A stretch of 29,927 nt of DNA from a virus: IMG/VR virus record IMGVR_UViG_3300042936_000197, positions 1-29,927 of that record. One strand, written 5' to 3'. A program made the position numbers and the translations under genes. Position 1 is the stretch's first letter. Each line of letters opens with the position of its first letter. The notes below the pieces were generated by a model. The model was not told the DNA's origin and ran no database searches. It was given only the letters and a program-made list of their open reading frames with translations. This document shows positions 1-16,635 of this stretch, piece by piece.

Positions 1-3000
1 TGGTTCGAGATACTGGTGGTGCAATTGTTGATCTAACAGTAGGCACAGTTGATGCACAGGATCCTTCTTCGCAAATTATTAGTTTTTCTGGACTTGGTTT
101 CTCTGATACGGTTACAGTATATTCTACAGTCGAAGCAAACTTTGCTGCGCCTCTTAGGAAAACTCTGAACCGAGCGAGACATGTTGCGTTTGACCTTTCA
201 CTAAAAATTCCTACTACTGGAGTAAATACTAGCACTGAAGTTATTACATATAATAATCACGGTCTGCAAACGAATGATAAAATCAAGTATAAAGCGAATG
301 GCGGAACTCCGATCGGCGGACTTACTGATGGAACTGAATATTTCGCAATCAATCTTGGGACGAATACATTTTCGGTTTCTGCATCTTCGGGTGGTTCAGC
401 AATAAATCTTTCGGGTACAGGTAACAATAATCAATACTTCTTCAAGGTAGATGGCGCTGCGTCATTAAACTTGGGCGTTGCTGACGTATTCTCTGTTGAT
501 GCTGTTTACAGAGCACCAGTTGGAACCACTACACGTGCGGCCGCTGTAACAACAGGTACTGATATCACCTCGCAATATACGTTGGATAATGGTCAGCGTG
601 ATAACACATACGAACTTGCTAAACTTATACAAGCAAATAATGCACCTTCCCTGGAAGGTTTTAATCTGATTGTCAAGTTTAGTTACTTTACTCATGTCAC
701 ATTGTCAACGAATGCTGGTTACTTCGCGGTCGACTCATATGATGTATTGGATAGTGCAGAACCTGATAGTGCCTTTATCAAGACATACGAGATTCCAATT
801 TATACTTCACCAACGACTGGTGAATCGTATGACCTACGCGACACGCTGGACTTCCGAGTAAGAATTACCGACTCAGTTACACCTGCTACATTTGCAACAA
901 TCGAGTCAGTACCAGTCAATCCAGCAAATTCAACTGGAACAATATTTAAACCATTGGGATTGAGTAATCTTACTATTCCTCGTCCTGAGCAAGAAATTAA
1001 TATCAACTACGAATATTACGTTGGTCGTAAAGACAAGATCGTAATGGATGACCATGGAGTGTTCAGCGCAGTTAGTGGAACTCCATCACTAACTCCTGTC
1101 GAACCACTTACTCCAGAAAACGCGATGTGTATTGCGATCGTTACAATTCCACCATATCCTTCGCTTGCTCCTAATGTTGCAAAGTCAACAGGGCGCAATG
1201 AATATGGTGTAACTTTCCGCACCCTTGATAATCGACGCTATACAATGCGCGATATTGGTGCAATTGAACAACGTGTTTCTCGCCTAGAATATTATACTAC
1301 TCTGACACTTCTCGAAAAAGCAACAGAGTCTCTGTTTATTCCGAGTGCCACAGATGAAATGTTGAATAGATTTAAACATGGTATTCTAGTAGATGCGTTT
1401 ACTGGACACAATGTAGGTAATCCAAAGGATCTCAACTATAGTTGCTCGATTGATGCAGTCAATCAAGAACTCCGTCCTTACTTTAATATCGAAAATGTTG
1501 ATCTAATTTTTGATTCTGCAAATTCTATTGGCGTAAAAAAGACAGGCGATCTTCTAACACTTCCATATAACTATGGTGTTCTTACTCAGAATAAATTTGC
1601 TTCGAAGTCTAGAAACTGCGTTGGAGAACTCCTATTCAATTACATTGGAGATATGACCCTAGATCCTCCAGTTGATAACTGGACAGATACTGCACAACTT
1701 CCTGACCTCGCAGTAAACTTTGACGGCAACTACGACAACTTTGCTGCCATGGCAAATGCATGGGGAACTCAATGGAATGACTGGCAGGACATCGTAACTG
1801 GTCGTTCGATTTCGACCGATACAACTACAACAGGTGGACAGACTCGCGTATCTGGTGACACTCTTTTCCAAGAGCAAATTCAGATCTCAACGACAACCAC
1901 TACGCAGCGTCAAACACGTCAAGGTGTGACTATGGGTGTTACTCCAGAAACTACGACGAGGGATCTTGGTAATCGCGTAACAAATGCTTCTATCATTCCA
2001 TATATGAGAAGTGTAACAATTACAGTTAAAACTAAGAGATTAAAACCTCTGACAAGAATCTATCCATTCTTTGACGGTATTGATGTTACAGCACATTGTC
2101 GCCCACTATCAAGTGCTGCTCTAACTGCATCACCGACTGATCCAGCAGAATATTCTGCATATGCTATTGCTGGTCCAACGGGTGTTTATGGTGCTCCGTT
2201 GGTTACTGATGCCAATGGCGAACTTGCAATTCAGTTTAAAATTCCTGCTGGTACGTTTAGAACAGGAACCAAGAACTTTAGAGTTTGCGACGATGCATTT
2301 AATAGATCACCATTCATTACAACTTCAGCGACAAATTCATTCTCCGCGAATGGTCTTTCGCAGGTGGTCGAGGGAACTGTTGTTTCTACGAGAGAGGCAA
2401 AAGTATCTTTCACTAATGTTAGTGATTCTCGTTCGGTGACTGAAAACAATACTACTGCAAATCGCATCGGCGAGAGAACAGTTGGAACAATTCAGAATAC
2501 TACAGTAAATAACACCTTTACGACTGTTAACAACACTACAAACGTTTCTAATGTTACTAACAATACAATAGAAGTTAATGAAACCAATGTTGTAAATACG
2601 GTGGTTAATAATATTACTCTAGTGGAAGAAATTACTAATATTACTAATAATCCCACTATTGTTGTTGAGAGAGAAGTTCCAGTTCCTCCAATTATACCGC
2701 CACCACCTCCGCCTCCACCGCCACCTCCTCCTCCTGGGCCACCAGCAGAACCTGAGTTGGTAGAGTTTAATTTCGACGATAATGGGTTTCCAGATTTTGG
2801 AAATCTTGGGTTCTTTGGTATTGGCCCTTTCGGAGCATTAGATCCACTCGCACAAAGTTTCTTTGTTGATGGTATGCCATTTGGAACATTCGCAACTGGT
2901 CTGGATGTATACTTCAGAACTAAGGGAACTGCTCCAATTACTCTACAACTTCGTGAGATGGTTAACGGATTTCCATCAGAGAAGGTTCTTCCATTCGGCG

Positions 3001-4385
3001 AAGTTACTTTGAGTGCAGACGAGGTTGCTGTATCAACTGAGAATCTCGCAGGTGAAGTAACATCATTCGCAGAAACTCGCTTCACATTCCCATCACCAGT
3101 ATATCTGCAAAACAATACAGAATATTGTTTCGTTCTTCTACCTGCGGGTAACGATCCTGGATATACTGCATGGGTTTCGGAACTCGGTGAAAATGAAGTA
3201 GGTATTTCTGGTGTTTCTAAGAGAATTTCAGAACAACCAAATGTTGGTATGTTGTTCACTTCTGCAAACAATCGCACATGGAGCGAAAAGCAAGCAGAAG
3301 ATATGAAGTTTACTCTGTATCGCGCAGTCTTTGATACATCAGTTATCTCGACTGCCAAGTTCCAGAATTCTAACTATGACTATCTTGCACTTTCAGAGCA
3401 GATGCTTCTTGTTTCTAATGATGCAGTGACCCCGACCAAGTTCACTGCTGGTGAAAAGGTTTATGTCGAGGGGCATAATTCTGATGCTGATGAACCAAAG
3501 TATGGTTATGTTAAGCAATATGATCCGTTGTATAATGTTCTGAAGATTGTTGTGCAGGAAGGTGTATTTACTGCCGCAGATATAATCACAAACGGAACAA
3601 TCAAAACTACAGTTACTGAAGTTGAAAATAAACTGATCAACTCTATCCAGACTAATATCGGTTACATGGACTTCACGCCAACTACGGGTGTTTGGACTTA
3701 TGCCAAGACTGCAAGTGGAGCATCTAGTGCAGGATCTACATACGATCGTCTGACGTTTGGTGAAACAAATGACATCCTAACAGAAGCAGCAATTTTCTCA
3801 AAATCAAACGAGACTGCTGATCTTGGCGGTAATAAGTCAATGAATCTTCGGTTTGGTATGAAAACAATGACTGATACAGTTTCTCCTGTGATCGATCTTA
3901 GAAAGTGTTCATTGATTTGTATTTCTAACTTCATCAATTCAGATGATGGTAATAGAGATGAAGATACTAATGTTGGTACTGCAAGTTCTAAATATATTTC
4001 GCGCCGAGTTAATCTTGATGGTAACTCAGAAGATTTGAGGGTCTATCTGAGTAATTATCTACCAGCAGGAACTTCAGCAAGAATATATGCTAAGTTGCAG
4101 AATGCATCAGACTCTAGAAACTTTGAAGATCTTGATTGGTTGGAACTAGAGACGAGCGTATCGCCACTAAGTTCTACTGCCGCTGCTGGATTTGTTGAGT
4201 ATGAATATAAAATACCAAAGGCAAATAAAGTTGACGAACTAGAAGATGAACCCTTCACATACACGTATTCGGGTGCGACTTATACCAAATTTGACAAAAT
4301 GGCGATTAAGATTGTCATGTTCTCTAACAACAGTTCTATTGTTCCTAAGTTTAAGGAACTGAGAGCAATCGCGCTGCAGGTATAA
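1..4385 (+). CDS. Large virion/baseplate structural protein, DUF4815-like, 5'-partial
   Basis: The reading frame is open from base 3, so the gene begins before the window; 1460 codons are present. A TTG at 471 is internal and not a credible start. Residues about 80-150 form a small Ig-like beta module of a kind common in phage fibres. From about residue 335 the protein resembles the DUF4815 structural proteins of marine T4-like phages (stretch with GRKDKIVMDD and later RDIGAIEQRVSRLEYYTTL). Residues about 830-885 are dominated by Asn, Thr and Val, and a run of 13 prolines follows at residues 899-911. Beyond the linker lie beta-rich sequences suggesting a receptor-binding or fibre-attachment part. 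In T4-like genomes this slot follows gp6-gp8, so it probably sits on the baseplate periphery. The DUF4815 assignment is from memory of the family; the exact role is inferred. Confidence 0.8.
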   Translation, partial: VRDTGGAIVDLTVGTVDAQDPSSQIISFSGLGFSDTVTVYSTVEANFAAPLRKTLNRARHVAFDLSLKIPTTGVNTSTEVITYNNHGLQTNDKIKYKANGGTPIGGLTDGTEYFAINLGTNTFSVSASSGGSAINLSGTGNNNQYFFKVDGAASLNLGVADVFSVDAVYRAPVGTTTRAAAVTTGTDITSQYTLDNGQRDNTYELAKLIQANNAPSLEGFNLIVKFSYFTHVTLSTNAGYFAVDSYDVLDSAEPDSAFIKTYEIPIYTSPTTGESYDLRDTLDFRVRITDSVTPATFATIESVPVNPANSTGTIFKPLGLSNLTIPRPEQEININYEYYVGRKDKIVMDDHGVFSAVSGTPSLTPVEPLTPENAMCIAIVTIPPYPSLAPNVAKSTGRNEYGVTFRTLDNRRYTMRDIGAIEQRVSRLEYYTTLTLLEKATESLFIPSATDEMLNRFKHGILVDAFTGHNVGNPKDLNYSCSIDAVNQELRPYFNIENVDLIFDSANSIGVKKTGDLLTLPYNYGVLTQNKFASKSRNCVGELLFNYIGDMTLDPPVDNWTDTAQLPDLAVNFDGNYDNFAAMANAWGTQWNDWQDIVTGRSISTDTTTTGGQTRVSGDTLFQEQIQISTTTTTQRQTRQGVTMGVTPETTTRDLGNRVTNASIIPYMRSVTITVKTKRLKPLTRIYPFFDGIDVTAHCRPLSSAALTASPTDPAEYSAYAIAGPTGVYGAPLVTDANGELAIQFKIPAGTFRTGTKNFRVCDDAFNRSPFITTSATNSFSANGLSQVVEGTVVSTREAKVSFTNVSDSRSVTENNTTANRIGERTVGTIQNTTVNNTFTTVNNTTNVSNVTNNTIEVNETNVVNTVVNNITLVEEITNITNNPTIVVEREVPVPPIIPPPPPPPPPPPPPGPPAEPELVEFNFDDNGFPDFGNLGFFGIGPFGALDPLAQSFFVDGMPFGTFATGLDVYFRTKGTAPITLQLREMVNGFPSEKVLPFGEVTLSADEVAVSTENLAGEVTSFAETRFTFPSPVYLQNNTEYCFVLLPAGNDPGYTAWVSELGENEVGISGVSKRISEQPNVGMLFTSANNRTWSEKQAEDMKFTLYRAVFDTSVISTAKFQNSNYDYLALSEQMLLVSNDAVTPTKFTAGEKVYVEGHNSDADEPKYGYVKQYDPLYNVLKIVVQEGVFTAADIITNGTIKTTVTEVENKLINSIQTNIGYMDFTPTTGVWTYAKTASGASSAGSTYDRLTFGETNDILTEAAIFSKSNETADLGGNKSMNLRFGMKTMTDTVSPVIDLRKCSLICISNFINSDDGNRDEDTNVGTASSKYISRRVNLDGNSEDLRVYLSNYLPAGTSARIYAKLQNASDSRNFEDLDWLELETSVSPLSSTAAAGFVEYEYKIPKANKVDELEDEPFTYTYSGATYTKFDKMAIKIVMFSNNSSIVPKFKELRAIALQV

Positions 4386-4386
4386 T

Positions 4387-4614
4387 ATGGCAAAATTCGC
4401 ACTTCAAGATACGAATAAATACATTAGAGATGGAGACTCCAAAGCAATTGTCTCTACTGATAAACACGAATTAGCAGCATATAATGCACAACGTGAAAGA
4501 CTTAAACAAATGAAGTCATATGGAATTGAGATTAATGAATTAAAGAATGAGATGACGGAAATTAAATCTTTGTTAACACAAATTCTCAACAATCATGAAG
4601 GTAGGAAAGCATGA
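4387..4614 (+). CDS. Small coiled-coil protein of unknown function
   Basis: A 75-residue protein starting one base after the preceding stop, with AGG about six bases upstream of the ATG inside the end of the previous gene. The sequence is highly charged. Its C-terminal half (from about residue 45) has the heptad-like pattern of a short coiled coil (INELKNEMTEIKSLLTQIL). It overlaps the next start by four bases (ATGA), which suggests translational coupling. I do not recognise the family. Its place between a baseplate protein and a fibre-like protein suggests a small connector or assembly factor; that is inference only. Confidence 0.65.
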   Translation: MAKFALQDTNKYIRDGDSKAIVSTDKHELAAYNAQRERLKQMKSYGIEINELKNEMTEIKSLLTQILNNHEGRKA

Positions 4615-5093
4615 GCACAATTACACTGAGGTCCGCCAAGGGCGTACCTTTAACAAATAATGAGGTTGATGATAACTTTACCAACCTCAATGACGATAAG
4701 TATCAATCTGGTGACAGTCCATCGTTCGAGAACCTGACACTAACTGGCGCATTTATCCCATCGGTAACTGCATCGGTTGCTGCAGCAGGAACCGATCAAG
4801 GCACTGCAACTGCGCTGACAAAAACAGTCAATATTGTCACCTCGGCAACAACAAACCAAGGGGTCAAACTCCCGACTGCTGCTGTAGGCGTTTCTGTTAC
4901 TATTATCAATACTACTGCGGTTACCATTAAGGTTTATCCAAGCACATCTGACGTCATTGACGAAGGAACTGTGAACGTTGCTGTTAATCTGGCACCATAT
5001 AGTTCTGTTCAGTTAGTTGCACAGGATACGCAAGACTGGTATCGCATTACCAATCTTATTGTTTACGACACAAGTGGTAACAGGTTAAACTAA
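4611..5093 (+). CDS. Short tail-fibre-like protein
   Basis: A 160-residue protein whose ATG overlaps the preceding stop (ATGA) and is preceded by an AGGA ribosome site. The N-terminus, ITLRSAKGVPLTNNEVDDNF, is typical of phage tail-fibre and virion attachment segments. The rest is rich in Thr, Val and Ala with beta-strand character. The C-terminus ends in VYDTSGNRLN, close to the end of the 451-residue fibre at 19462 (IYDAAGTLLN), although the two genes lie 14 kb apart. It could be a short fibre, a fibre adaptor, or a subunit that assembles with the repeat proteins that follow. Confidence 0.7.
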   Translation: MSTITLRSAKGVPLTNNEVDDNFTNLNDDKYQSGDSPSFENLTLTGAFIPSVTASVAAAGTDQGTATALTKTVNIVTSATTNQGVKLPTAAVGVSVTIINTTAVTIKVYPSTSDVIDEGTVNVAVNLAPYSSVQLVAQDTQDWYRITNLIVYDTSGNRLN

Positions 5094-5094
5094 A

Positions 5095-8000
5095 ATGAAT
5101 CCTCTAAAGGTCAAAGCATCTACGACGCCAATTACGTCTGCTGTTTTCAGTGGTCTAGAACCTTTGACCAATGCAGAGGTTCAGAACTATATTGCCAATG
5201 TTATCACAACTAAGTTCGCGACGGATACAACTGGATCTGGCGCTGCTGAGATAAACATCACAACAGACAATTCGGGGACAGGAACTTCTATTGGAACGTT
5301 CGTTGATACGGATAGAACTGAAGCGACAGGAACACATCCTGCCACGGGTGACACAACTAGCACTACATACTATGTAAAGCAAGTAACTGCTCCTGCTTCT
5401 GAAAATGTTACTGCTCGTCCTGTTGCTTGGTTATCTGATGGCATTCGCCGAATGACAGATGGCGATTTAGATGGCGTTTTAGATACTGTAATCTCAGCGT
5501 TTGTTTCTGAGTCTGAGTATACTGCTGGTCAATATAGACTACAAGCAACTGCTCCGACAGGTGGAACTTGGCAAGCAAGATACACACTCACTGATGTTGC
5601 GAACGGCGGAAATACCACAACCTACCTGTGGCAAAAAACCGCTGCTTCGACAGCTGCCAACGATTCTCTTGCACCATTAAAAAGTAACGATGCCAACTCG
5701 TTGAAGATCATGACCGCTGCCGAAATTGAGCAGTTGGTTCCGAACTTCCGTAATCGCATTATCGATACTAATATCGGAACTTATAAACTCCAAGCGACTG
5801 CTCCAGGTGGCGGAACATGGGTTGAATTAGGAACCTCTACTACTGATACCAGAGAGCAAGTTTCTCCACAAAATTATGTTGGTAACTATACTGGTAATTA
5901 TTCCGGAAATTATGTAGGTCCACAATATACTGCATTCTTTACAAGTCCTGCATACTCCCGTGCGTTTACTGGTAACTATGGCGGAACTGCAACATATACA
6001 GGATTTTTCTCTGGTCCAGGAACAACGTATAGTGGATTCTTCACTGGATTTTTCACTGGTCCTGGATATAGTTCTCCATATAGTGGCGTGACATATTCAC
6101 CTGCTGCATCCTATACTGGTAACTACGTAGGTCCAGCAAACTATTCTGGTACATATACTGGTCTTGAATTGGTTGGATATACTGGTTTCTATAGTGGAGG
6201 TCCATTCTATTCCACAACTGGTGGCACATATAGCACAAGTTATACTGGATATTATAGTAGTGCACCAACGTCAGGTCCAGCATATTCTGGGACATATACT
6301 GGTCCTGGACCTACGCGATTTGCTGTAGAATTCTACACTGGATTTTATACTGGATATTACTCAGGTCCATCTATAAACTATACTGGAACACCATATTCTA
6401 CTTCTGTTCCATATACTGGTTTTTATACTGGTCCAGCATTTTACTCTGGTCCAGGAGCATCATATACAGGGTATTTCCAATCACCAGCATATACTGGTTT
6501 CTATAGCAGTGGTAGCGCCAATTATACAGGGTTCTTCCAAGCACAAGCATATGCTGGTAACTACAGTGGTGGTGGTGGATCCTATACGGGGTATTTCCAA
6601 TCACCAGCATATACTGGTACCTATGTTGGAGGTGGCACCAATTATACTGGGTTATTTGTAGCTGACGTATTTGTTGGATACTACTCTGGTCCAGGAGCAT
6701 CGTATACTGGTTATTATGATGGCGAAGGTCCACCAGAGCAAGATTTCTTTGGTCCAATTTTAACTCCATATGCGGGTAATTATACTGGTGCGCCTGTCAC
6801 TCAGAATTATGCTGGATATTATACTGGTGCACCAACGACACTATACTATGAAGGTATAAGTCCTGGACCTCCAATCGCTCCAGGTGAACCTGGAGAACCA
6901 GTTCCTAATTACCGAGAAGAGTTTGGTCCAGGAATTTATGTTGGATATTATACTAGCACAGGTCCAGGAGTTTACACTGGTTATTATCTAGGAACAGTTC
7001 CAACCATTGTACCATATACTGGTTTCTATAGTGGTGGTGGAACAACCAACTATGCTGGTCCAGCATACCAAGCACAGATCCCCATTTTCGGCGGCAGCAT
7101 GCCTGCATTCTACTTGGGGTATTTCAGCGGTGGTCCAGGAGCAACGTATACTGGATATTACAGTAGCACCTACACTGGTTTCTACAGTGGCGCAGGAACG
7201 ACGTATACTGGATACTATACGCTGCAATGGGATATTACTGGGTTCAACGGACTGCCAACAGGATCCATTCCTGCATTTTATAGCGGAACCTTCAGCGGTC
7301 CAGGTACACCCTATACAGGGTATTTCCAATCACCAGCATATACTGGTTTCTACACTGGCGCTCCTACCAATTATACTGGTACTGCATCATACACAGGATA
7401 CTATCTTGGTTCTGGTGGACCATCATTTATGGGTTCTATATATACTGGGTTCGGTGGAAATTTTGCTGCAGGTAATGAGCCAGGAGGGTCGTTTGCGGCG
7501 TTCTATAGTAGTGGTCCAGGAACTTCATATTCAGCAAACTACTCCAGTGCACCAGTTGCATATACTGGTGTATATAGTGGAACGTATAGTCAAAGTGTAG
7601 CATACGCTGGACTAACAAATTATACTGGACCATCATATTCTGCGACAATTCCAGGATCGACATATACTGGATATTATACTGGTCCAACATATACCACACC
7701 AACAGGTCCAGCATATGGTCAAACATATTCGGGTAACTACAATGGATTCGTTCCAGGAACTCCATACACTGGAAACTACTCTGGTTCTACAACCTATACA
7801 GGTTTCTATAGTGGTGCTGGTGGCAGCAATTATACTGCGATTTTCATCAGTCCTGTATATTCAGCAACTTATAGTGGTAACTTTACTGGCAATTTCTCTG
7901 GTACTGATAACTACACAGGAAACTTTATTGGACCTGCTACATATACTGGTAATTATACTGGTAATTTTACAAGTACGTATACCAATATATATAGTGGGAA

Positions 8001-8109
8001 CTTTACAGGAAACTACTCTGGTACATACTCTGGAACCTATTCAGGCGCGACTGTACTTTCTTCTAAGGATACCGTTTCAACCGTTAAACTTTGGATTAGG
8101 ACTGCATAA
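5095..8109 (+). CDS. YTG-repeat virion protein 1 (probable adhesin or tail fibre)
   Basis: A 1004-residue protein. Residues 1 to about 259 form a non-repetitive N-terminal region that contains an internal duplication (two Y-(R/K)-LQATAP-GGTW stretches). From residue 260 to near the end it is built of short units of the form [Y/F]-[T/S/V/A]-G-X, mostly four residues long, interrupted by Pro/Gly-rich turns. A short C-terminal cap follows (ATVLSSKDTVSTVKLWIRTA). The neighbour at 8112 shares the N-terminal region and the cap. The regular Tyr/Gly spacing suggests an extended beta-solenoid-like fibre; no structure is known to me. Adhesin or fibre function is inferred from position among tail genes. 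Residues about 570-610 hold a Pro/Gly/Glu-rich insert that breaks the repeat. Confidence 0.75.
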   Translation: MNPLKVKASTTPITSAVFSGLEPLTNAEVQNYIANVITTKFATDTTGSGAAEINITTDNSGTGTSIGTFVDTDRTEATGTHPATGDTTSTTYYVKQVTAPASENVTARPVAWLSDGIRRMTDGDLDGVLDTVISAFVSESEYTAGQYRLQATAPTGGTWQARYTLTDVANGGNTTTYLWQKTAASTAANDSLAPLKSNDANSLKIMTAAEIEQLVPNFRNRIIDTNIGTYKLQATAPGGGTWVELGTSTTDTREQVSPQNYVGNYTGNYSGNYVGPQYTAFFTSPAYSRAFTGNYGGTATYTGFFSGPGTTYSGFFTGFFTGPGYSSPYSGVTYSPAASYTGNYVGPANYSGTYTGLELVGYTGFYSGGPFYSTTGGTYSTSYTGYYSSAPTSGPAYSGTYTGPGPTRFAVEFYTGFYTGYYSGPSINYTGTPYSTSVPYTGFYTGPAFYSGPGASYTGYFQSPAYTGFYSSGSANYTGFFQAQAYAGNYSGGGGSYTGYFQSPAYTGTYVGGGTNYTGLFVADVFVGYYSGPGASYTGYYDGEGPPEQDFFGPILTPYAGNYTGAPVTQNYAGYYTGAPTTLYYEGISPGPPIAPGEPGEPVPNYREEFGPGIYVGYYTSTGPGVYTGYYLGTVPTIVPYTGFYSGGGTTNYAGPAYQAQIPIFGGSMPAFYLGYFSGGPGATYTGYYSSTYTGFYSGAGTTYTGYYTLQWDITGFNGLPTGSIPAFYSGTFSGPGTPYTGYFQSPAYTGFYTGAPTNYTGTASYTGYYLGSGGPSFMGSIYTGFGGNFAAGNEPGGSFAAFYSSGPGTSYSANYSSAPVAYTGVYSGTYSQSVAYAGLTNYTGPSYSATIPGSTYTGYYTGPTYTTPTGPAYGQTYSGNYNGFVPGTPYTGNYSGSTTYTGFYSGAGGSNYTAIFISPVYSATYSGNFTGNFSGTDNYTGNFIGPATYTGNYTGNFTSTYTNIYSGNFTGNYSGTYSGTYSGATVLSSKDTVSTVKLWIRTA
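5872..8058 (+). repeat. Tetrapeptide (12-bp periodic) YTG repeat region of protein 1
   Basis: The coding sequence repeats on a roughly 12-base period, with codons for Tyr-Thr/Ser-Gly-X. The repeat is imperfect and broken by five- to seven-residue turns. Because of this periodicity, long open frames also appear in other frames and on the minus strand; these are composition artefacts. Confidence 0.85.
6475..6654 (+). repeat. Three tandem 60-bp (20-residue) super-repeat units
   Basis: Units begin at 6475, 6535 and 6595. Each encodes F-Q-(S/A)-(P/Q)-A, a Y-(T/A)-G-X unit, a seven-residue Gly/Ser-rich loop and a further Y-T-G-X unit. The first and third units are very close at the DNA level. Confidence 0.8.
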
Positions 8110-8111
8110 CT

Positions 8112-10202
8112 ATGGTTCTTAGAATTAAATCTTCTGCGACACCTGTTTCCTCTGCAAATATGCAAGGGTTGCAGGCAATGTCTGTAGATGAAATTAAAAA
8201 TTATGTAGCAAATATCCTAACAGTTTCCTTTGGTGCGAATGCTGATGGTGCAGGTACGGGTGAAATCAATATCACTACAAATAATACTGGCACAGGAACT
8301 GCAATCGGAACCTTTGTTGATACAGATCGTCAAGAGGCGACAGGAACTCACCCAGCGACTGGTGCGATTGATACTGTAACATATTACGCAAAGCAGGTAT
8401 CTGCCGCAGCGACTGAAAGTATTACCAATAGACCGATCAAATATTCTACCGACCGCATCAAAGAAATGTCTGATGCAGAAATTGATAGTGAATTACTTGA
8501 TTATGCTATTTCTGCGATGGTCGCTGAAAGTTCGTATACTGCTGGACAGTATCGTCTGCAAGCGACTGCCCCTAGCGGCGGAACTTGGGTTTCCCGTTAT
8601 ACGCTGACTGATGTTGCAAACGGTGGAAATACTCTCACTTATCTTTGGCAGAAAACTGCGGCGACTAGCACACCAGATACAAGTCTTAAACCACTTAAAC
8701 TGATCAATACCAAGGACATTAAAGAAATGTCTTCAGGTGAGATTCTACAGATGCTTCCAAGTTTCCGTAATAGAATTATTGATTCTGGTCTAGGAACATA
8801 CAAACTTCAATCTTCCACACCATCTGGTGGAACATGGGTCCAACTTGGTGACGCAACAACTGACACTAGAGAACAAATTTCTCCTAGTAACTATGTGGGT
8901 AACTATGTCGGTAACTTCAGTGGCAACTATGCTGGTGGTTACGTAGGTCCAGCAAACTACTCTGGTGGATACTCTGGTACTTTTGCAAACAATTTCACTG
9001 GTGGTTACGTAGGTCCAGCAAACTACTCTGGAACTTATGCGGGTAACTTTTCTGGTACTTATTCAGGAACCTATGCAGGTACTGCTCCGTATTCTGGAAC
9101 ATACTCACAAGGATTTAGTGGTAACTATGCTGGTGGATATGTTGGACCTGCGCCTTACTCTGGGTCATACTCACAAGGATTTAGTGGTAACTATGCTGGT
9201 GGATATGTAGGCACTGCGCCGTATTCTGGTTCATATTCTCGTGGATTCAGTGGTAACTATGCTGGCGGTTATATAGGCACTGCGCCATACTCTGGAACAT
9301 ATTCAAATAACTTCAGTGGCACCTACCTAGGAACATATGCTGGTTCTAGAAACTATGCAGGATCCTACGCAGGTAACTTCTCAGGTAACTATGTTGGTTA
9401 CTATGCGGGATCGAGAAACTATGCAGGATCCTATGCCAGCAACTTTTCTGGTAATTATATTGGTGCTGGTTTTGCTACCGCATATGCAGGAACATATAAT
9501 CCATTCTTTGGTGGATTCGTTGGTCCAGGATACACTGGTAACTACATATCGTATTTCTCCGGAACATTTTCTGGTAACTACTTAGGTTATTTCTCAGGTT
9601 CGAGAAACTATGCAGGCAACTATGCAGGAACATATAGCGGAAATTATGTGGGGTATTTCTCTGGATCTAGAAACTATGCTGCCAATTATGCTGGTAACTA
9701 TACAGGTAACTACCTAGGAAACTTCACTGGTAACTATATTGGACCAGCAACCTATACTGGTTTCTATTCAGGTAACTATACTGGGTTCTTCTCAGGTAAC
9801 TATATTGGACCAGCAACCTATACTGGTTTCTATAGTGGAACATACACTGGTTTCTTTACTGGCAATTATATCGGAACTGCTACATATACTGGATTCTATT
9901 CAGGTACATATACTGGAAACTTTACTGGTAACTATATTGGTCCTGCAAACTATACAGGTAATTATACTGGATTTTACACGGGCAATTTTACAGGATTCTA
10001 TACAGGAACTGCCACCTATACGGGAACATATCTAGGTAACTTTACTGGTAACTATACTGGATTCTATGCAGGAACTGCTACCTATACTGGTTTCTACAGC
10101 GGATCTTATTCGCAGTCGTTCTCAGGAACCTATTCTGGTGCGACCATTCAAGCGACCAAAGACACTATCTCAACAGTATATTTGTGGGTAAAAACTGCAT
10201 AA
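8112..10202 (+). CDS. YTG-repeat virion protein 2, paralogue of the preceding gene
   Basis: A 696-residue protein two bases after the preceding stop. Residues 1 to about 259 align along their whole length with protein 1 (for example shared GTFVDTDR, EATGTHPATG, YRLQATAP and YTLTDVANGGNT), and the C-terminal cap (KDTISTVYLWVKTA) also matches. The repeat body, residues 260 to about 675, is more regular than in protein 1. It is dominated by 22-residue super-repeats made of one six-residue turn and four tetrapeptides. About 17 Asn-X-Ser/Thr triplets occur in the body, counted by eye. The two genes look like an old tandem duplication whose repeat bodies then diverged. A fibre or adhesin role is inferred. 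It is the last gene before the accessory island. Confidence 0.75.
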   Translation: MVLRIKSSATPVSSANMQGLQAMSVDEIKNYVANILTVSFGANADGAGTGEINITTNNTGTGTAIGTFVDTDRQEATGTHPATGAIDTVTYYAKQVSAAATESITNRPIKYSTDRIKEMSDAEIDSELLDYAISAMVAESSYTAGQYRLQATAPSGGTWVSRYTLTDVANGGNTLTYLWQKTAATSTPDTSLKPLKLINTKDIKEMSSGEILQMLPSFRNRIIDSGLGTYKLQSSTPSGGTWVQLGDATTDTREQISPSNYVGNYVGNFSGNYAGGYVGPANYSGGYSGTFANNFTGGYVGPANYSGTYAGNFSGTYSGTYAGTAPYSGTYSQGFSGNYAGGYVGPAPYSGSYSQGFSGNYAGGYVGTAPYSGSYSRGFSGNYAGGYIGTAPYSGTYSNNFSGTYLGTYAGSRNYAGSYAGNFSGNYVGYYAGSRNYAGSYASNFSGNYIGAGFATAYAGTYNPFFGGFVGPGYTGNYISYFSGTFSGNYLGYFSGSRNYAGNYAGTYSGNYVGYFSGSRNYAANYAGNYTGNYLGNFTGNYIGPATYTGFYSGNYTGFFSGNYIGPATYTGFYSGTYTGFFTGNYIGTATYTGFYSGTYTGNFTGNYIGPANYTGNYTGFYTGNFTGFYTGTATYTGTYLGNFTGNYTGFYAGTATYTGFYSGSYSQSFSGTYSGATIQATKDTISTVYLWVKTA
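8889..10142 (+). repeat. YTG repeat region of protein 2
   Basis: A 12-base periodic region encoding Y/F-X-G-X tetrapeptides. These are grouped into 22-residue units such as Y-I-G-P-A-T followed by Y-T-G-F, Y-S-G-T, Y-T-G-F and F-T-G-N. Confidence 0.85.
9090..9287 (+). repeat. Three tandem 66-bp near-identical units
   Basis: Units start at 9090, 9156 and 9222. Each encodes 22 residues: Y-S-G-(T/S), Y-S-(Q/R)-G, F-S-G-N, Y-A-G-G, then Y-(V/I)-G-(P/T)-A-P. DNA similarity between units is high, so this is a likely site for repeat-number change. Confidence 0.8.
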
Positions 10203-10271: not shown

Positions 10272-10715
10272 TTGATTAATACCTCACCTGTAGTTACTCG
10301 CAAGATCGAAAATCCTTATTGGGCGAACAAAGAACGTCAGCATATTATCGCTGAGTTTTTCTATCCTGATACCAATAAGCGTGTTACTGCATCCATCATG
10401 AATGATGGTACCAATCGTGACTACGAAGAAGTGATGCGTCTCTTCAGTATTGGGCAGATCGATGCCAATACTGATCGGCGCATGGAAGATCGCAACCAAC
10501 AAATCAAACAAAATCTTGAACGCCAGAAGGTTGACAAGACTCGCATGCAGCAAGAACAGTTGTTCGCTGCTAAGTTGGATGCCTTCGAAATCGATGTAGT
10601 CAAGAACTCTAAGAATCGCGATCTAAAGTCTAAGATTCGCAAGTCTAAGACTTTCATGGAAGTCACTGCATATACAGTAATGCTACTGATGCAGGAAGAA
10701 ACGAATGCCGAATAA
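10272..10715 (+). CDS. Conserved-looking phage protein of unknown function
   Basis: A 147-residue protein. An in-frame stop at 10257 limits the start, and the best candidate is TTG at 10272 with GGAG at 10261-10264, seven bases upstream. The first 60 residues look globular (PYWANKERQHIIAEFFYP). The rest is highly charged and helical, with a probable coiled coil around residues 70-110 (RRMEDRNQQIKQNLERQKVD). The C-terminus (residues about 118-145) is a basic helix then a hydrophobic stretch (AYTVMLLM) too short to be a clear membrane span. The gene overlaps the following glycosyltransferase by 11 bases. I do not recognise the family. Confidence 0.7.
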   Translation: MINTSPVVTRKIENPYWANKERQHIIAEFFYPDTNKRVTASIMNDGTNRDYEEVMRLFSIGQIDANTDRRMEDRNQQIKQNLERQKVDKTRMQQEQLFAAKLDAFEIDVVKNSKNRDLKSKIRKSKTFMEVTAYTVMLLMQEETNAE

Positions 10716-11403
10716 TGGATTCTTATATGTTGCCACTCGCCGCAAAGGTTATTACAGGGCAGCAAGAAACTCTGCGATCTCATTAAAGGATTATTATCCT
10801 GATGCGCATATTACATTCTTCACACACGAAGAATGGGTGCAACCATCCGACTATGAGATCTTCGATAACGTAGTAACCGAAAATGTTCCTCGCGATAAAC
10901 GAGCAAAACTTTGGGCGCTCGATCAGACACCATACGACCTGACTGTTTATATGGACTGTGATACCGAAGTTGAACACGAAGATATTCAAAAGATCTTTGA
11001 GCAGATCCCAGACGACATAGACGTATTATTCACTGCGAATCGCCCATATAATGCAGCGCTGACTAAGTTATCTGAAACTGAAGAGATGACCGAACATTGC
11101 GGTATTTTCTTATACCGCAATAATCCTCAAACATTGAAGATGATGCGTGCTTGGTATGATGAATACTGGGAACAGAATAAACCTGATTGGGATCGTAAAC
11201 ATTATCCTGCTGGGGCATTGGAATGGGACACATTTACAATGTGGAGGTTATTAAACTTGTTTGACTTTGGCGTCAAAACAGGCAGATTTCCCGACCCTGA
11301 TGCTCGATGGAACTTTGTTTCTGGATATAGAGAAGAAGAACTTCAGGGGCAACCAAGAGTGATCTATCACTATACAATCCCCACGGGTTTGCAAGATTTT
11401 TGA
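10705..11403 (+). CDS. GT-A fold glycosyltransferase (GT8-like)
   Basis: A 232-residue protein, cytoplasmic in the host by lack of any signal. It begins GFLYVATRRKGYYRAARNSA, the pattern of nucleotide-diphospho-sugar transferases. It carries an Asp-X-Asp motif at D84-C85-D86 within VYMDCDTEV, the expected metal and nucleotide-sugar binding site of GT-A enzymes. A later stretch (HCGIFLYRNN) corresponds to the acceptor-side region, and the C-terminal YHYTIP supplies a late His. Sugar and acceptor cannot be read from the sequence. It overlaps the upstream gene by 11 bases and is followed by the oxygenase-like gene. It is only distantly similar to the four minus-strand transferases. Confidence 0.75.
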   Translation: MPNNGFLYVATRRKGYYRAARNSAISLKDYYPDAHITFFTHEEWVQPSDYEIFDNVVTENVPRDKRAKLWALDQTPYDLTVYMDCDTEVEHEDIQKIFEQIPDDIDVLFTANRPYNAALTKLSETEEMTEHCGIFLYRNNPQTLKMMRAWYDEYWEQNKPDWDRKHYPAGALEWDTFTMWRLLNLFDFGVKTGRFPDPDARWNFVSGYREEELQGQPRVIYHYTIPTGLQDF

Positions 11404-11416
11404 AGGTTATTAATTG

Positions 11417-12094
11417 ATGTTACAATTTACAAATTCAGTTTCCAAAGAACTAACTGACATTCTAGATCCATTCACAGAATGGTTCTTTGCTCAAAATGAT
11501 CAACATCTTGTCCTCGGTCCACAAGAAATGCAAGATAAGCGTCGTGGTGGATTGACAGTCGACACTGCTACTGATGAGCAGTATATGAATCATATCGTCA
11601 ATAAGGGACACAATCACGTTGGATTTCCTGATGTTGCATGGTGCACTGACATGTCTCAGGCACATGGACAACCATGGTTCCCTTCTGAGTATGGCAGAAG
11701 GCAGCAAGAAACTAATAAAGAATTGATCAGTTATCTTGGCGCAAGAAATAATGCTGTGTTTACTTACTATCCCGAGAATGGTTTTATGGGATGGCACACC
11801 AACTGGAATGCATCGGGATACAATATTCTGATCACATATAATGCAGAAGAAAATGGTGGGTTCTTCCGCTATTTGGATCCAGTCACAAAAGAAATCGTAA
11901 CTATGGTTGATCCTGTTGGTTGGTCATGCAAGGTTGGTCACTTTGGCGATCGCAGCGATCCAAACAAAATCGTATATCACTGTTGTGGTAATACTGCTAA
12001 GAGATTGACACTAGGATATGTTGTGCCGCATCTAGAAATTTGGCGGTCAATGATTGAAGATATCTCAGGTGAAGATGCTTCTCACTTTTCCTGA
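11417..12094 (+). CDS. 2OG-Fe(II) oxygenase-like protein
   Basis: A 225-residue protein. ATG at 11417 is preferred over TTG at 11414 because AAGG at 11403-11406 is ten bases upstream of it. The C-terminal half has the outline of a double-stranded beta-helix dioxygenase: a first metal His at H127 (GWHTN), a distal His at H188 (VYHCC) and Arg at R196 (KRLTLGYVV), which would hold 2-oxoglutarate. The usual Asp two residues after the first His is Asn (N129), so the facial triad is altered. I recall similar HTN-bearing proteins in marine phages but cannot check this. Possible roles are hydroxylation of a protein side chain or of a sugar. The gene converges with the minus-strand operon and overlaps its last gene by 13 bases. 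Confidence 0.6.
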   Translation: MLQFTNSVSKELTDILDPFTEWFFAQNDQHLVLGPQEMQDKRRGGLTVDTATDEQYMNHIVNKGHNHVGFPDVAWCTDMSQAHGQPWFPSEYGRRQQETNKELISYLGARNNAVFTYYPENGFMGWHTNWNASGYNILITYNAEENGGFFRYLDPVTKEIVTMVDPVGWSCKVGHFGDRSDPNKIVYHCCGNTAKRLTLGYVVPHLEIWRSMIEDISGEDASHFS

Positions 12095-12703: not shown

Positions 12704-13363
12704 TTATTTTTTCCCTATTACCATAAACCGATCGAACTCGACCTTACCATCCCAACTGTAATATGACTGCTTAATAGATCCCTCGTAGAAAACATCAGTA
12801 ACTCCAACATTCTCAATATGCTCTTCGAGTGTTGGAACGCAATTGATGCCATACATCTCTCTAAAAACATTTGACGATTGACAGGCAAAGATACAATCTG
12901 GATTTGCTGTTGTCATTTTCTTTAGAGGATACATTGCCTCACACCCGATAGAAATTACTACATCTGTTTCTAATGCATTGATATCATGATATGCAAACGG
13001 AATATCCCAATTGATGTGATTGAGTTCAATTCCTCTCTCGTTGTTATAGTAACGATTGAAAACCTTAGACAGTTCTAATGCATCTTTATCAATATCGATC
13101 AAGTTGAGTTTCTTGACATTTAGATTTTCGCAGAGAAGTGGAACTAAAGGAAATCCCAACCAAGAATTTAGAATCGTTATATTCAATGGATCAGGACCTC
13201 GAGTAAGTCTCTGTAAGTTTTCTACTAACCAAATGGCAGCATCCATTGTATTTGGATTCATAGATTTACGGAAATCGTCATGCTTATACGGCATTTCGTG
13301 GGCGATCTTATCTAATCCGTCGCCCCAGTTTCGGTAATTATTTAAGTAATTATAATTTAACAT
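12704..13363 (-). CDS. SAM-dependent methyltransferase-like protein
   Basis: The ATG at 13363 gives 219 residues; the frame stays open upstream to 13477, but that part lies inside the preceding gene. It overlaps that gene by 14 bases. The sequence has the alternating strand-helix plan of a class I methyltransferase: strand and loop around residues 62-70 (ITILNSWLG) in place of the usual Gly-rich motif I, an acidic strand end at residues 86-92 (LNLIDID) that would bind the ribose of SAM, and a motif IV-like strand at 135-146 (VVISIGCEAMYP). The motif I glycines are poor, so cofactor binding is not certain. In this operon it might methylate a sugar or a fibre protein; this is inference. Confidence 0.55.
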   Translation of the reverse strand: MLNYNYLNNYRNWGDGLDKIAHEMPYKHDDFRKSMNPNTMDAAIWLVENLQRLTRGPDPLNITILNSWLGFPLVPLLCENLNVKKLNLIDIDKDALELSKVFNRYYNNERGIELNHINWDIPFAYHDINALETDVVISIGCEAMYPLKKMTTANPDCIFACQSSNVFREMYGINCVPTLEEHIENVGVTDVFYEGSIKQSYYSWDGKVEFDRFMVIGKK

Positions 13364-14033
13364 CTTGTGGTCTTTCCATTGAATCGTATAAACAAATAAG
13401 TGGTTCTTCGCGGAGGACTTGTTCCCGCACATCAATTGGCCACATGTATCCGTAGTTGTAACTATACACCCAACCATCTGGGAAAAAATTAATTTTTAAT
13501 AGTTGTTCTCTCTTGTGCCCGAATAGATTATCAAGACCGCGATAATGAAAAAACATTTGATCAGGATAATCTGTGACAAACTTGGTAATCTTATTGACAT
13601 CCAATCTATCGTTCCACCTCAACACGCTGGAATTTAGATCTGTATATGCACGAGGAATATCTTTTGTGTCTCGTTTCATTTTTCTCATGTCGTGCCAATG
13701 GGTGCGAACAAATGTCAGTCCATCTTCTGGGTCATGATCAACGATGCAATCAATATTGTTTTGAATTTCAATATCAAGATCCAGGAAAAGTTTTTCTCCA
13801 TATTGGGGTACAACTCCTCGATCAAACAAATACAATTTGTTCCACCATTTTTCATAGTAGTTATCTTCGGGGAAGGGAATTACTATAACATCACGATGCA
13901 ATCCAATCGGATGTTCAGTCAAACAGTAAAAGTCGAAATCAGTTGTTATATGTTTTCTGCATTGTTCAAGAACACGATTAACATGTTCTGAATCATATTT
14001 GAACCCCCACTTAACTGTGTAAATACTAATCAT
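13350..14033 (-). CDS. GT-A glycosyltransferase paralogue A1
   Basis: A 227-residue protein when started at ATG 14033, whose first base is the last base of the upstream stop (TGATG). This start also aligns its N-terminus (TVKWGFKY...VNRV) with the three sister genes. The Asp-X-Asp motif is D85-L86-D87 in FLDLDIEIQNNID. A shared acceptor-side motif reads LNSSVLRW, and a later GWVYSYNYG stretch matches the sisters. It groups with the gene at 15578 (both DLDI, Q-N/K-NID). Substrate unknown. It is the fourth gene of the minus-strand operon. Confidence 0.7.
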   Translation of the reverse strand: MISIYTVKWGFKYDSEHVNRVLEQCRKHITTDFDFYCLTEHPIGLHRDVIVIPFPEDNYYEKWWNKLYLFDRGVVPQYGEKLFLDLDIEIQNNIDCIVDHDPEDGLTFVRTHWHDMRKMKRDTKDIPRAYTDLNSSVLRWNDRLDVNKITKFVTDYPDQMFFHYRGLDNLFGHKREQLLKINFFPDGWVYSYNYGYMWPIDVREQVLREEPLICLYDSMERPQDVKL

Positions 14034-14851
14034 CAAATATTCCAATGCTCTAAAAGATCAGGGTCGACGAGCGACTCCTGTTTAACTTTGCCTCTGCTGT
14101 TATCTTGAAATGGTAACAAGTCAACATTAAACACACAAAGGATACAGTCCTTTCTATATATGCCTACTTGCAAATCACCTTCGTGCCAGTTACGACCACG
14201 ATTGTATGAGTAAGCAAATGTGCTTGGGAAGTGTGCCCAAAGTGGAGTATCACTAAAGTCACCCCATCGCCAACTATGATAGTTGTCAGTTCCATCGGTG
14301 AACGTGAACCAAATACGCTCTTGATGTTCTAGAACATCCTGCCAGATGCACTCTGTCTGATCATCTGACCAAACCATGCAACTACCATTAGTGTAAGCAC
14401 CATGCGCCAACTTAAAGTTTCGAGTCTTCATGGGTCGAGGGTCTTGCCACCACGAGCGTAACTTGGTAGGATTCTCTAGGTCATAAGTGATGATCGGCGA
14501 CAAATCATTTTGAATGATAACATCAAGGTCGAAAAAGACAAATCTTCCAGTGGGTTTATCGTCTGCGAAGTTATGTGTATTGAAGATGAACGTCTTTGGT
14601 CTGTCCCAACAACGTGCCATGCCGTATTTGAAATCCTCAGATCCAAACCAGTATTTCGGATGGATGTTGGGAATGTCTGGGAAGTCGATGACTTTAATTT
14701 CATTATCAAAACCTTCGCTGTTATCTGTATAGCAATAGAAATGGAACTCAAAATTATCAGGGGTGTGCTTCTTTGCCATTCTATAAAGACGGTTGACAAA
14801 CTCAGCGGAATACTTTGTACCCCATTTACAGCAGACGTAATTAACTCTCAT
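14033..14851 (-). CDS. GT-A glycosyltransferase paralogue B1
   Basis: A 272-residue protein. ATG at 14851 overlaps the upstream stop as ATGA and is preferred over GTG at 14857. The N-terminus VNYVCCKWGTKYSAEFVNRL is the family signature of this operon. The Asp-X-Asp is D108-L109-D110 in FFDLDVIIQNDL. Shared blocks are HPKYWFG, NGSCMVW, GTDNYHSWRWGDF and YSYNRG. It is the longest of the four sisters. It is closest to the gene at 14848 (shared HPKYWFG and DLDV). The end of the protein is acidic and unrelated in its last residues. Confidence 0.7.
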   Translation of the reverse strand: MRVNYVCCKWGTKYSAEFVNRLYRMAKKHTPDNFEFHFYCYTDNSEGFDNEIKVIDFPDIPNIHPKYWFGSEDFKYGMARCWDRPKTFIFNTHNFADDKPTGRFVFFDLDVIIQNDLSPIITYDLENPTKLRSWWQDPRPMKTRNFKLAHGAYTNGSCMVWSDDQTECIWQDVLEHQERIWFTFTDGTDNYHSWRWGDFSDTPLWAHFPSTFAYSYNRGRNWHEGDLQVGIYRKDCILCVFNVDLLPFQDNSRGKVKQESLVDPDLLEHWNI

Positions 14852-15600
14852 TTCCACAATCCAATAATATTTTCATCTTGGCAATCTACCAGTTCTATTT
14901 GCTCTTTGGCGGAAGGATGAGGAACATTATCTGTATTGAACAAGCAAATCTTAGCATCGGGTCGAAACTTAAATCTTTCAATGTCATCTGGATGATGCTT
15001 TCCTCGATTCCAAGAATAGATCCATCCACCTGGAATATCTTTCCAGAAGTCTCTCTGCCTCCAGTAATGATAATTATCGCTTCCCTTGAAGAAAGTTTTA
15101 AATATCGATTCGGAATTCTCGATGGCATCGTTGTAGATATGTTCGCATGATTTACCAGGCCAAAGCATCATACTAGAGTTGAAAAAAGTTCCTCTGGTGT
15201 CAATAAACAGTCTGTCATGTTTCTGTGATTGTGGTTGCCAGCGGCATTGAATGATGCGAGGTTTCTGTGCAAGTTCCAGAACCTCAGTTATATCTTCTTG
15301 GATTACTACGTCAAGGTCAAAATAACACCAGTTACCTACGTACCCTAACCAGTTGTGCGAATTAAATACTGAGAACTTTGCTCTGTCGAAACAGAAGGTT
15401 TCTTTGCCAAACCAATATTTCGGATGTAGGATACCATCATCAGGTATAGGTGCAGTATCGCAAATTAAACCATCGGCATCATCCGTATAACACGTGAATG
15501 TGAAAAGGTTGGTGTAGTTCTTCTTTACCATATTGTAAAGATTATTCACATATTTGGCGGGATACTTATCGCCCCACTTAATGCATACGAAGTTCATCAT
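14848..15600 (-). CDS. GT-A glycosyltransferase paralogue B2
   Basis: A 250-residue protein. Two consecutive ATGs at 15600 and 15597 are possible starts; both lie inside the end of the upstream gene (about 20 bases overlap). The N-terminus MNFVCIKWGDKYPAKYVNNL matches the sisters. The Asp-X-Asp is D95-L96-D97 in YFDLDVVIQEDI. Shared blocks: HPKYWFG, FFNSSMMLW, GSDNYHYWRQRDF and YSWNRG. The aromatic-rich body and conserved D-N-Y-H block suggest the same fold and chemistry as B1, perhaps with a different acceptor or sugar. Confidence 0.7.
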   Translation of the reverse strand: MMNFVCIKWGDKYPAKYVNNLYNMVKKNYTNLFTFTCYTDDADGLICDTAPIPDDGILHPKYWFGKETFCFDRAKFSVFNSHNWLGYVGNWCYFDLDVVIQEDITEVLELAQKPRIIQCRWQPQSQKHDRLFIDTRGTFFNSSMMLWPGKSCEHIYNDAIENSESIFKTFFKGSDNYHYWRQRDFWKDIPGGWIYSWNRGKHHPDDIERFKFRPDAKICLFNTDNVPHPSAKEQIELVDCQDENIIGLWK

Positions 15601-16255
15601 ACTCTTTATCTGCTCCAGGAAACTGGTCTAATCCATTTAATAATGCTATTGTGTAACTTGGGCGATAGTAGAAAGATTTGTTATGGTCATCTATACCGTA
15701 ATAGTCTGCACCATAAACAAACGAATAAATCTCGCCTTTCGGAAAATAATTAAATCTAAAATCTTCGTGCCACAAGAACCTGTCGTCGCCAAAATACTTA
15801 ACCATAAAGTAATCTGGATCTGATTGAAAGTGCTCCCATATATGATGAACAGTCCCATCTTTCCACATCATTACGCTCGAGTTGTAATTACTTAAATACC
15901 GCATGCCATGAGTTTCTCCGACATAATCAGGAAACTCTATATTCTTCCAGTAAGTATACGCTATTGTTGGATAAATGTCAAGGTATTTCCACAGATGATC
16001 AATATTTTTTTGAATACGAATATCTAGATCCAGATAAAGAACATCACCAAATCCTCGTTGACTAAACATCCAAACCTTATACCAGTGACCTTCTATATCA
16101 TCTGGCAACGGCCAAGGAACAACAATTGGATCCAATCCAGTCGGGTCGTCGGTAAAACATACGTATGTATATTTCCTGCCTGTATCTTTGACGATTCTAT
16201 TCACATCATCGGCAGAATATTTTGTGCCATATTTAAGCATTATAATTGTTTTCAT
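15578..16255 (-). CDS. GT-A glycosyltransferase paralogue A2, first gene of the minus-strand operon
   Basis: A 225-residue protein from ATG 16255, with GGAG seven bases upstream on the minus strand. A longer frame to 16345 exists but lacks support and would cross the divergent promoter region. The N-terminus TIIMLKYGTKYSADDVNRI matches the sisters. The Asp-X-Asp is D76-L77-D78 in YLDLDIRIQKNID. The shared block is YNSSVMMW, followed by DDRFLW and IYSFVYG. It is closest to A1 at 13350. It is read away from the fibre genes that begin at 16306. Confidence 0.7.
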   Translation of the reverse strand: MKTIIMLKYGTKYSADDVNRIVKDTGRKYTYVCFTDDPTGLDPIVVPWPLPDDIEGHWYKVWMFSQRGFGDVLYLDLDIRIQKNIDHLWKYLDIYPTIAYTYWKNIEFPDYVGETHGMRYLSNYNSSVMMWKDGTVHHIWEHFQSDPDYFMVKYFGDDRFLWHEDFRFNYFPKGEIYSFVYGADYYGIDDHNKSFYYRPSYTIALLNGLDQFPGADKEYDELRMH

Positions 16256-16269
16256 CACAACTCCAAAAT

Positions 16270-16277
16270 TATAAATA
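16270..16277 (+). promoter_or_regulatory. T4-type late promoter box, plus strand
   Basis: TATAAATA, an exact match to the T4 late -10 element, lies 28 bases before the ATG at 16306 in a short divergent intergenic region. It would drive the fibre gene chain. Family knowledge: such boxes are used by a gp55-type sigma factor. Confidence 0.65.
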
Positions 16278-16287
16278 GTGTCATAGT

Positions 16288-16295
16288 AATTTATA
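16288..16295 (-). promoter_or_regulatory. Possible late promoter box for the minus-strand operon
   Basis: Read on the minus strand this is TATAAATT, a seven of eight match to the late box, 32 bases before the ATG at 16255. A sigma70-like TATAAT (minus, 16273-16268) with a poor -35 is an alternative. Confidence 0.35.
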
Positions 16296-16305
16296 AGGGT
16301 TCCCG

Positions 16306-16635
16306 ATGGCACAAATTCAAAATATCTATATCGACCAAGGAACAACTTTTTCTTTGTCTCTTATGGTAAATGATCAGAACGGGGATCCGAAAGATCTTAC
16401 TGATTATACTGCTGCAGCACAAATGCGCAAATCATATTATACTAATACTTCCGTTAGTTTTACTGCTGAAATTACTTTACCAGAAGATGGTGAAGTTACT
16501 ATTTCATTGACTGCTGTGCAAACATCAGCAATAAAAGCAGGGAGGTATGTGTATGATATTGAAATTACAGGCGAAGGCGAAACGCTACGAGTCCTAGAGG
16601 GTATCGTTGTAATCAATCCAGAGGTAACAAAATAA
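16306..16635 (+). CDS. Small virion protein with a baseplate/fibre adaptor-like N-terminus
   Basis: A 109-residue protein with AAGGG six bases before the ATG. It reads IQNIYIDQGTTFSLSLMV, followed by DLTDYTAAAQMRKSY, then ISLT, KAGRYVYDIEI and LEGIVVINPEVT. This is the layout of a small all-beta domain found in many phage baseplate and fibre operons, BppU N-terminus-like. It is probably an adaptor that holds a fibre on the baseplate. It is the first gene after the late box at 16270 and overlaps the next gene by one base (TAATG). The domain comparison is from memory and the role is inferred. Confidence 0.65.
   Translation: MAQIQNIYIDQGTTFSLSLMVNDQNGDPKDLTDYTAAAQMRKSYYTNTSVSFTAEITLPEDGEVTISLTAVQTSAIKAGRYVYDIEITGEGETLRVLEGIVVINPEVTK

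Follow-up and report, generated by a model that had tools for sequence, protein, structure and literature searches.

The window analysed here is a 29.9-kb fragment (29,927 nucleotides) of a freshwater T4-like virus (IMG/VR record IMGVR_UViG_3300042936_000197), in which two adjacent genes, located on the plus strand, as are all other features of the window given below with coordinates unless otherwise stated, encode proteins made up largely of [Y/F]xGx tetrapeptide repeats. Protein A (5095–8106, 1004 amino acids) and its paralogue protein B (8112–10199, 696 amino acids) were delimited from the list of open reading frames and characterised by their periodicity, which was irregular in A and organised into regular 22-residue super-repeats in B, a probable tail fibre. 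On the evidence of the sequences, a structural rule behind the 22-residue period has good support inside one branch of the family. We tentatively favour, at a little short of an even chance, the reading that A and B are paralogous tail fibres and that the shaft of B has a regular beta-structure, with every unit of 22 residues forming one coil of a beta-solenoid.

The 22-residue unit of protein B

A and B have in common an N-terminal domain, a long region of [Y/F]xGx repeats and, at the C-terminus, a short tail (KDTxSTVxLW). The non-repetitive N-terminal domain of B (approximately residues 1–255; 8112–8876) was 61% identical to that of A, and the conserved tail of B, SGATIQATKDTISTVYLWVKTA (10134–10199), followed a pattern common to A and the homologues. 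The repeat region of B parsed into 16 exact units of 22 residues, in each of which four [Y/F]xxx tetrads are joined to a single [Y/F]xGxxx hexad. Eight consecutive units form array 1 (8892–9419), with the hexads YVGPAN, YAGTAP, YVGPAP, YVGTAP, YIGTAP, and YAGSRN; two units with FSGSRN hexads form array 2 (9543–9674), which is followed by a spacing of 26 residues; and six units, with the hexads YIGPAT, YIGTAT, YIGPAN, YTGTAT, and YAGTAT, form array 3 (9687–10082). According to the same parse, arrays 1 and 2 are separated by a central break (9420–9542) containing YNPFFGGFV (residues 462–470). This break (residues 437–477) and the single 26-residue spacing (22 + 4) were the departures from 22 in B.

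Autocorrelation of residues 260–676 gave an amino acid identity of 0.62 at lag 22 (z = 29 with respect to shuffles), with further peaks at lags 44 (0.52) and 66 (0.46) and a depletion of odd lags; identity was 0.32 at lag 18 and at the level of chance at lag 6. The spacing from one hexad to the next was 22 residues in 13 of 15 cases, as compared to a mean of 0.45 and a maximum of 4 when unit order was shuffled 5,000 times. The register was kept across three families of hexad words (YVGPAP/YVGTAP, YAGSRN/FSGSRN, and YIGPAT/YIGTAT). A preliminary description, made by reading the sequence, had already reported 22-residue units in B and had held that a missing lag-22 peak would refute them; the units proved to be real, three of them lying at 9090–9287 exactly as first placed, and the peak was found. 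Aromatic residues also favoured one parity, with 79% of the pairs within 60 residues at even separations, which fits the alternation between inside and outside needed by an extended strand. A and B matched no profile in Pfam or PHROGs and the profile of B had no match in the PDB, so that, as judged from sequence, no described family in these collections matches them; a literature search found no paper on YTG or GNVTGN repeats.

Reach of the rule among relatives

In protein A, regularity was only local. Three 20-residue units (YTGYFQSPAYTGFYSSGSAN, YTGFFQAQAYAGNYSGGGGS, and YTGYFQSPAYTGTYVGGGTN; 6463–6642) start at residues 457, 477, and 497, and are those formerly placed, in another phase, at 6475–6654; over the whole of A the lag-20 signal was weak (0.16, z = 3). 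A scan of IMG/VR with B as query retrieved 71 relatives. Homologues sharing the period, whose search had been proposed beforehand, were found: hexad spacing in the B orthologues was 22 residues in 178 of 231 cases and 26 in 30 of 231. Every full-length B orthologue found carried the motif Y..[FY][FY]GG[FY], which matches the YNPFFGGFV of the central break. The scan with A led to a second clade (L185–L193) with a single fibre gene, whose N-terminal domains had 49–56% identity to those of A and B. The hexads of this clade are different (YVGAKT, YVGTST, FTGAKT), the spacing was 22 in 13 of 20 cases, and a counterpart of the central-break motif, Y[VTI]LYYSG[YF], was present in four of six proteins of the clade. 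In some A orthologues, such as that of L039, another arithmetic was seen (4 + 6 + 6 + 6), which likewise sums to 22. A further A orthologue (L012, 531–3836) displayed, at the same gene position, a different super-period of 14 residues (YTGFYTGPSTPGTP; lag-14 identity 0.37).

In distant marine relatives, with around 30% identity, the aromatics were spaced on a lattice of 4 residues: multiples of 4 made up 73% of the aromatic separations within 60 residues and even values 85%, and the commonest top lags were 24, 4, 28, 12, and 8. The 22-residue period as a rule of the whole family was ruled out by this 4n spacing together with the irregularity of A. Since the marine relatives use 4n, the tetrad with even spacing is the deepest rule shared, and 22 is the form taken in one branch. 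The fibre family occurred in hundreds of uncultured viral contigs, but the phage collection searched contributed a single record, Phage C48C1 (Kyanoviridae), on which the literature search found no paper. One contig filed under a metagenome-assembled genome of Bifidobacterium breve (L196) carried a fibre of the family together with homologues of the three genes that follow the fibre genes in the window, 76–94% identical to those of the window; it is most likely a mis-binned phage contig.

Predicted fold and competing readings

Under the favoured reading, A and B would consist of an N-terminal attachment domain, a [Y/F]xGx tetrad shaft of variable length and the short conserved tail, and in the shaft of B each unit of four tetrads plus one hexad turn would make one coil of a beta-solenoid. 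Equivalent residues would then stack on one another, and the shaft would presumably lengthen or shorten by whole coils. An AlphaFold2 model of seven units (residues 524–677, most of which are array 3), built on a 12-row alignment restricted to rows staying in register, was predicted as a beta-solenoid with a predicted local distance difference test score (pLDDT) of 91.5 and a predicted template modelling score of 0.81, and presented strands of 20 residues interrupted every 22 residues by a break of two. The sequence lends the fold support that is independent of AlphaFold2, because the constant 22, the even parity and the turns kept in place belong to the sequence itself. The 22-residue coil is the leading hypothesis, and a solenoid with five edges is plausible. 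If true, the coil would represent a new modular beta-shaft whose length could be read from the sequence.

Several points weigh against this reading. The full-length protein, modelled with an 18-row alignment, gave a mean pLDDT of 38, that is, an uninformative model, in which strand breaks also recurred every 22 residues; and the five seven-unit models were spread over pLDDT values from 59 to 91. AlphaFold2 has a known tendency to produce confident but spurious beta-solenoids when given near-perfect repeats, and does so for more than 40% of random perfect repeats (PMC11795689). Of the features expected of a beta-solenoid, the constant 22-residue unit is present in the sequence, whereas the stacked strands are only predicted, and by a predictor prone to this bias. 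Foldseek against the PDB returned mostly beta-helices and solenoids, none of them significant (best E value 2.3e-3, template modelling (TM) scores up to around 0.34), and against a viral library a single match, whose E value was 2e-5 but whose TM-score was no higher than 0.28; all listed matches had TM-scores at or below around 0.38. Among the relatives, the recurrence of 26-residue spacings in B orthologues and the lack of the 22 period in the marine proteins tell in the same direction, and the latter, moreover, carry arginine in glycine places on the tyrosine face and aspartic or glutamic acid at position 4 of the tetrad. Such residues are hard to bury in the core of a simple single chain, so an intertwined trimer or a different assignment of inside and outside is possible. 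The solenoid guessed in the preliminary description agreed with the seven-unit model, but its five-edge turn is only a conjecture given the over-prediction of beta-solenoids for repeats; the remark that no described fold has this arithmetic was not contradicted by the sequence and structure searches.

The foremost alternative, which we consider somewhat unlikely, is a trimeric intertwined beta-helix resembling the spike of T4 gp5, in which the tetrad or octad would be the unit, three chains would contribute to each turn, and the 22 would be secondary and set by the position of the hexad corners. Phage fibres are usually trimers, and the 4n spacing of the marine relatives, with 24 as commonest top lag, agrees with such an arrangement. 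Comparable repeats, which also speak for it, occur in the T4 gp5 helix itself (VxGxxxxx; PMC4576200) and in a structural protein of phage S-RIM2 encoded just upstream of the neck genes, which carries a (V/L)TGN tetrapeptide array. Against the trimer, B is without VxGxxxxx, and a loose lattice of tetrads would not call for so strict a register of 22.

An improbable reading is that the repeats form a disordered, sticky low-complexity region rich in Tyr, Gly, Asn, and Thr, adhesive or condensate-like, the 22 having no folded counterpart. The composition of the B-type repeats (G 23%, Y 17%, T 12%, N 11%, S 10%, F 8%) would suit it, and so would the pLDDT of the full-length model and the solenoid bias of AlphaFold2. 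However, a disordered region would not be expected to keep so strict a period through deep divergence while its words change; odd lags are depleted, and the charge-hydropathy value (0.456 vs. a boundary of 0.418) falls on the folded side.

Identity of codons for the same residue at lag 22 was 0.52 in B vs. 0.45 expected from codon usage, and 0.46–0.57 vs. 0.45–0.48 in five relatives; three neighbouring pairs of units were closer in DNA (0.71–0.80), indicating that some duplication occurs. Recent tandem DNA duplication was ruled out as sole cause of the period, since silent sites are near random at lag 22 while the protein register is kept. That the period merely reflects tandem duplications of 66 bp, and no structural rule, is accordingly very improbable, in spite of those three pairs and of the different array lengths of orthologues, because synonymous sites are overall nearly random and the register persists across differently worded families and clades. 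The proposal that a super-period which stays constant while the sequence changes must reflect a structural rule was supported for B, its orthologues and the second clade, but not in general, given the irregular A, the 4n marine relatives and the recurrent 26-residue spacings.

Genomic setting and comparison with known systems

Upstream of A and B lies the gene of a DUF4815 structural protein (471–4382; Pfam PF16075, E 2.3e-14; phrog_358), and downstream of them are the neck genes: the window continues with connector genes resembling gp13, gp14, and gp15 and with a terminase, whose identity to that of Synechococcus phages, S-PM2 among them, was 49–50%. The DUF4815 gene is probably VrlC-like, a name suggested by its position. 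In pelagimyophages, the stretch from VrlC to gp14 has been described as the host-recognition cluster, in which tail fibres as well as glycosyltransferases are encoded (PMC7029224), and the placement of A and B corresponds to it. Owing to this position and to the conserved cassette downstream, the best reading of A and B is that of putative paralogous tail-fibre (host-adhesion) proteins of a freshwater T4-like phage related to Kyanoviridae, and the gene context likewise supports their former designation as virion-type proteins, in a putative sense.

The fibre gene is separated from the DUF4815 gene by one that encodes a 160-amino acid protein (4611–5090), an arrangement kept in both 22-residue clades. 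The cassette comprises p147 (10272–10712), a possible fibre chaperone, a glycosyltransferase-like protein (10705–11400), and p226 (11414–12091), followed further downstream by p109 (16306–16632). The order DUF4815, 160-amino acid gene, fibre, p147, glycosyltransferase-like gene, p226, and then p109 is common to both clades, and at around 30% identity it is also kept in the marine relatives, mostly without the 160-amino acid gene. The glycosyltransferase-like protein presents an invariant DxD (D84/D86) in its alignment and matched Glycos_transf_2 of Pfam weakly in 10 of 17 members (best E 0.0029), the copy of the window being below the curated cut-off. The invariant H128, N130, H189, and R197 of p226 possibly denote, by eye, a likeness to 2-oxoglutarate oxygenases; searches of p226 and p147 for a named enzyme family gave nothing significant, and no profile supports p226 as an oxygenase. 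A chaperone role of p147 and a modification of the fibre by the cassette enzymes are put forward as ideas only.

In a bolder reading, which we deem unlikely as a whole, B would be the first described aromatic-glycine beta-solenoid, with a 22-residue coil of five aromatic-led segments (4 + 4 + 4 + 4 + 6), and would belong to a widespread fibre family of aquatic phages with shafts from less than 200 to around 3,000 residues, assembled and perhaps covalently modified (by hydroxylation or glycosylation of Tyr, Asn, or Thr) by the p147, glycosyltransferase-like and oxygenase-like proteins of the cassette. Receptor-binding fibres of the abundant aquatic T4-like phages have mostly remained unidentified, and here a family is found that can be recognised by a simple rule in its sequence and that has a conserved cassette of partner genes; the pairing of a glycosyltransferase-like gene with the fibre makes fibre modification a testable idea.

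Some other features of the region were observed. Four minus-strand genes (13350–14042, 14033–14854, 14848–15597, and 15578–16342) seem to be paralogues with the motifs KWG.KY and DLD(I/V); they had no significant match in Pfam and are possibly a glycosyltransferase-like family of the host-recognition region. In L028, L049, L035, and L052, the gap between the glycosyltransferase-like and p226 genes measures around 570 bases, vs. 14–21 in most others of the clade. The DUF4815-type protein encoded upstream of the fibre in a second-clade phage (L186, 115–3231) contains, by eye only, a Hint/intein-like domain (CFIAGTEILMAENG...VAHN) seemingly inserted into its proline-rich stretch.

The C-terminal triple-stranded beta-helix of T4 gp5 resembles B in that it belongs to a phage tail protein with a periodic, even-length, beta-type repeat and a glycine two positions after a large residue; it is built of octads with valine, whereas the units of B have 4 and 6 residues, begin with Y/F and are joined in a 22-residue super-unit, so that the octapeptide is not found in it. 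The left-handed beta-helix, with its [LIV]-x4 hexapeptide and 18-residue coil, does not describe B either, in which lag 22 dominates over lag 18, lag 6 is at chance and Pfam gave no match. Single-chain beta-solenoids at large (left- and right-handed beta-helices, ice-binding proteins and the curli-like CsgA and FapC) share with B the stacking of equivalent strands that is predicted for it, and curli-type repeats have a similar unit length; B differs from them in having no sequence match and 20 of 22 residues in predicted strand. The S-RIM2 structural protein (AOO06811.1; Synechococcus phage, Kyanoviridae) resembles A and B in its tetrapeptide xTGN repeats and in its location, and differs in its aliphatic first residue, its short array and its family (phrog_697); it was rejected as a homologue, the match being to a low-complexity array, and is an analogy only. 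The counterpart in the one matching record of the phage collection is C48C1 CDS0201 (WJE88074.1, hypothetical; 141011–151054, or L200, 9012–19055), which with more than 3,300 residues, YxGN and YxR (YxRTRxSx) repeats and 4n spacing (12, 24) has no 22-residue unit, but whose N-terminal domain is homologous to those of A and B (around 27–30%) and whose gene, of more than 10 kb, is followed by homologues of p147, the glycosyltransferase-like gene and p226 and then, at the place matching p109, by a gene annotated as 'L-shaped tail fiber protein assembly'.

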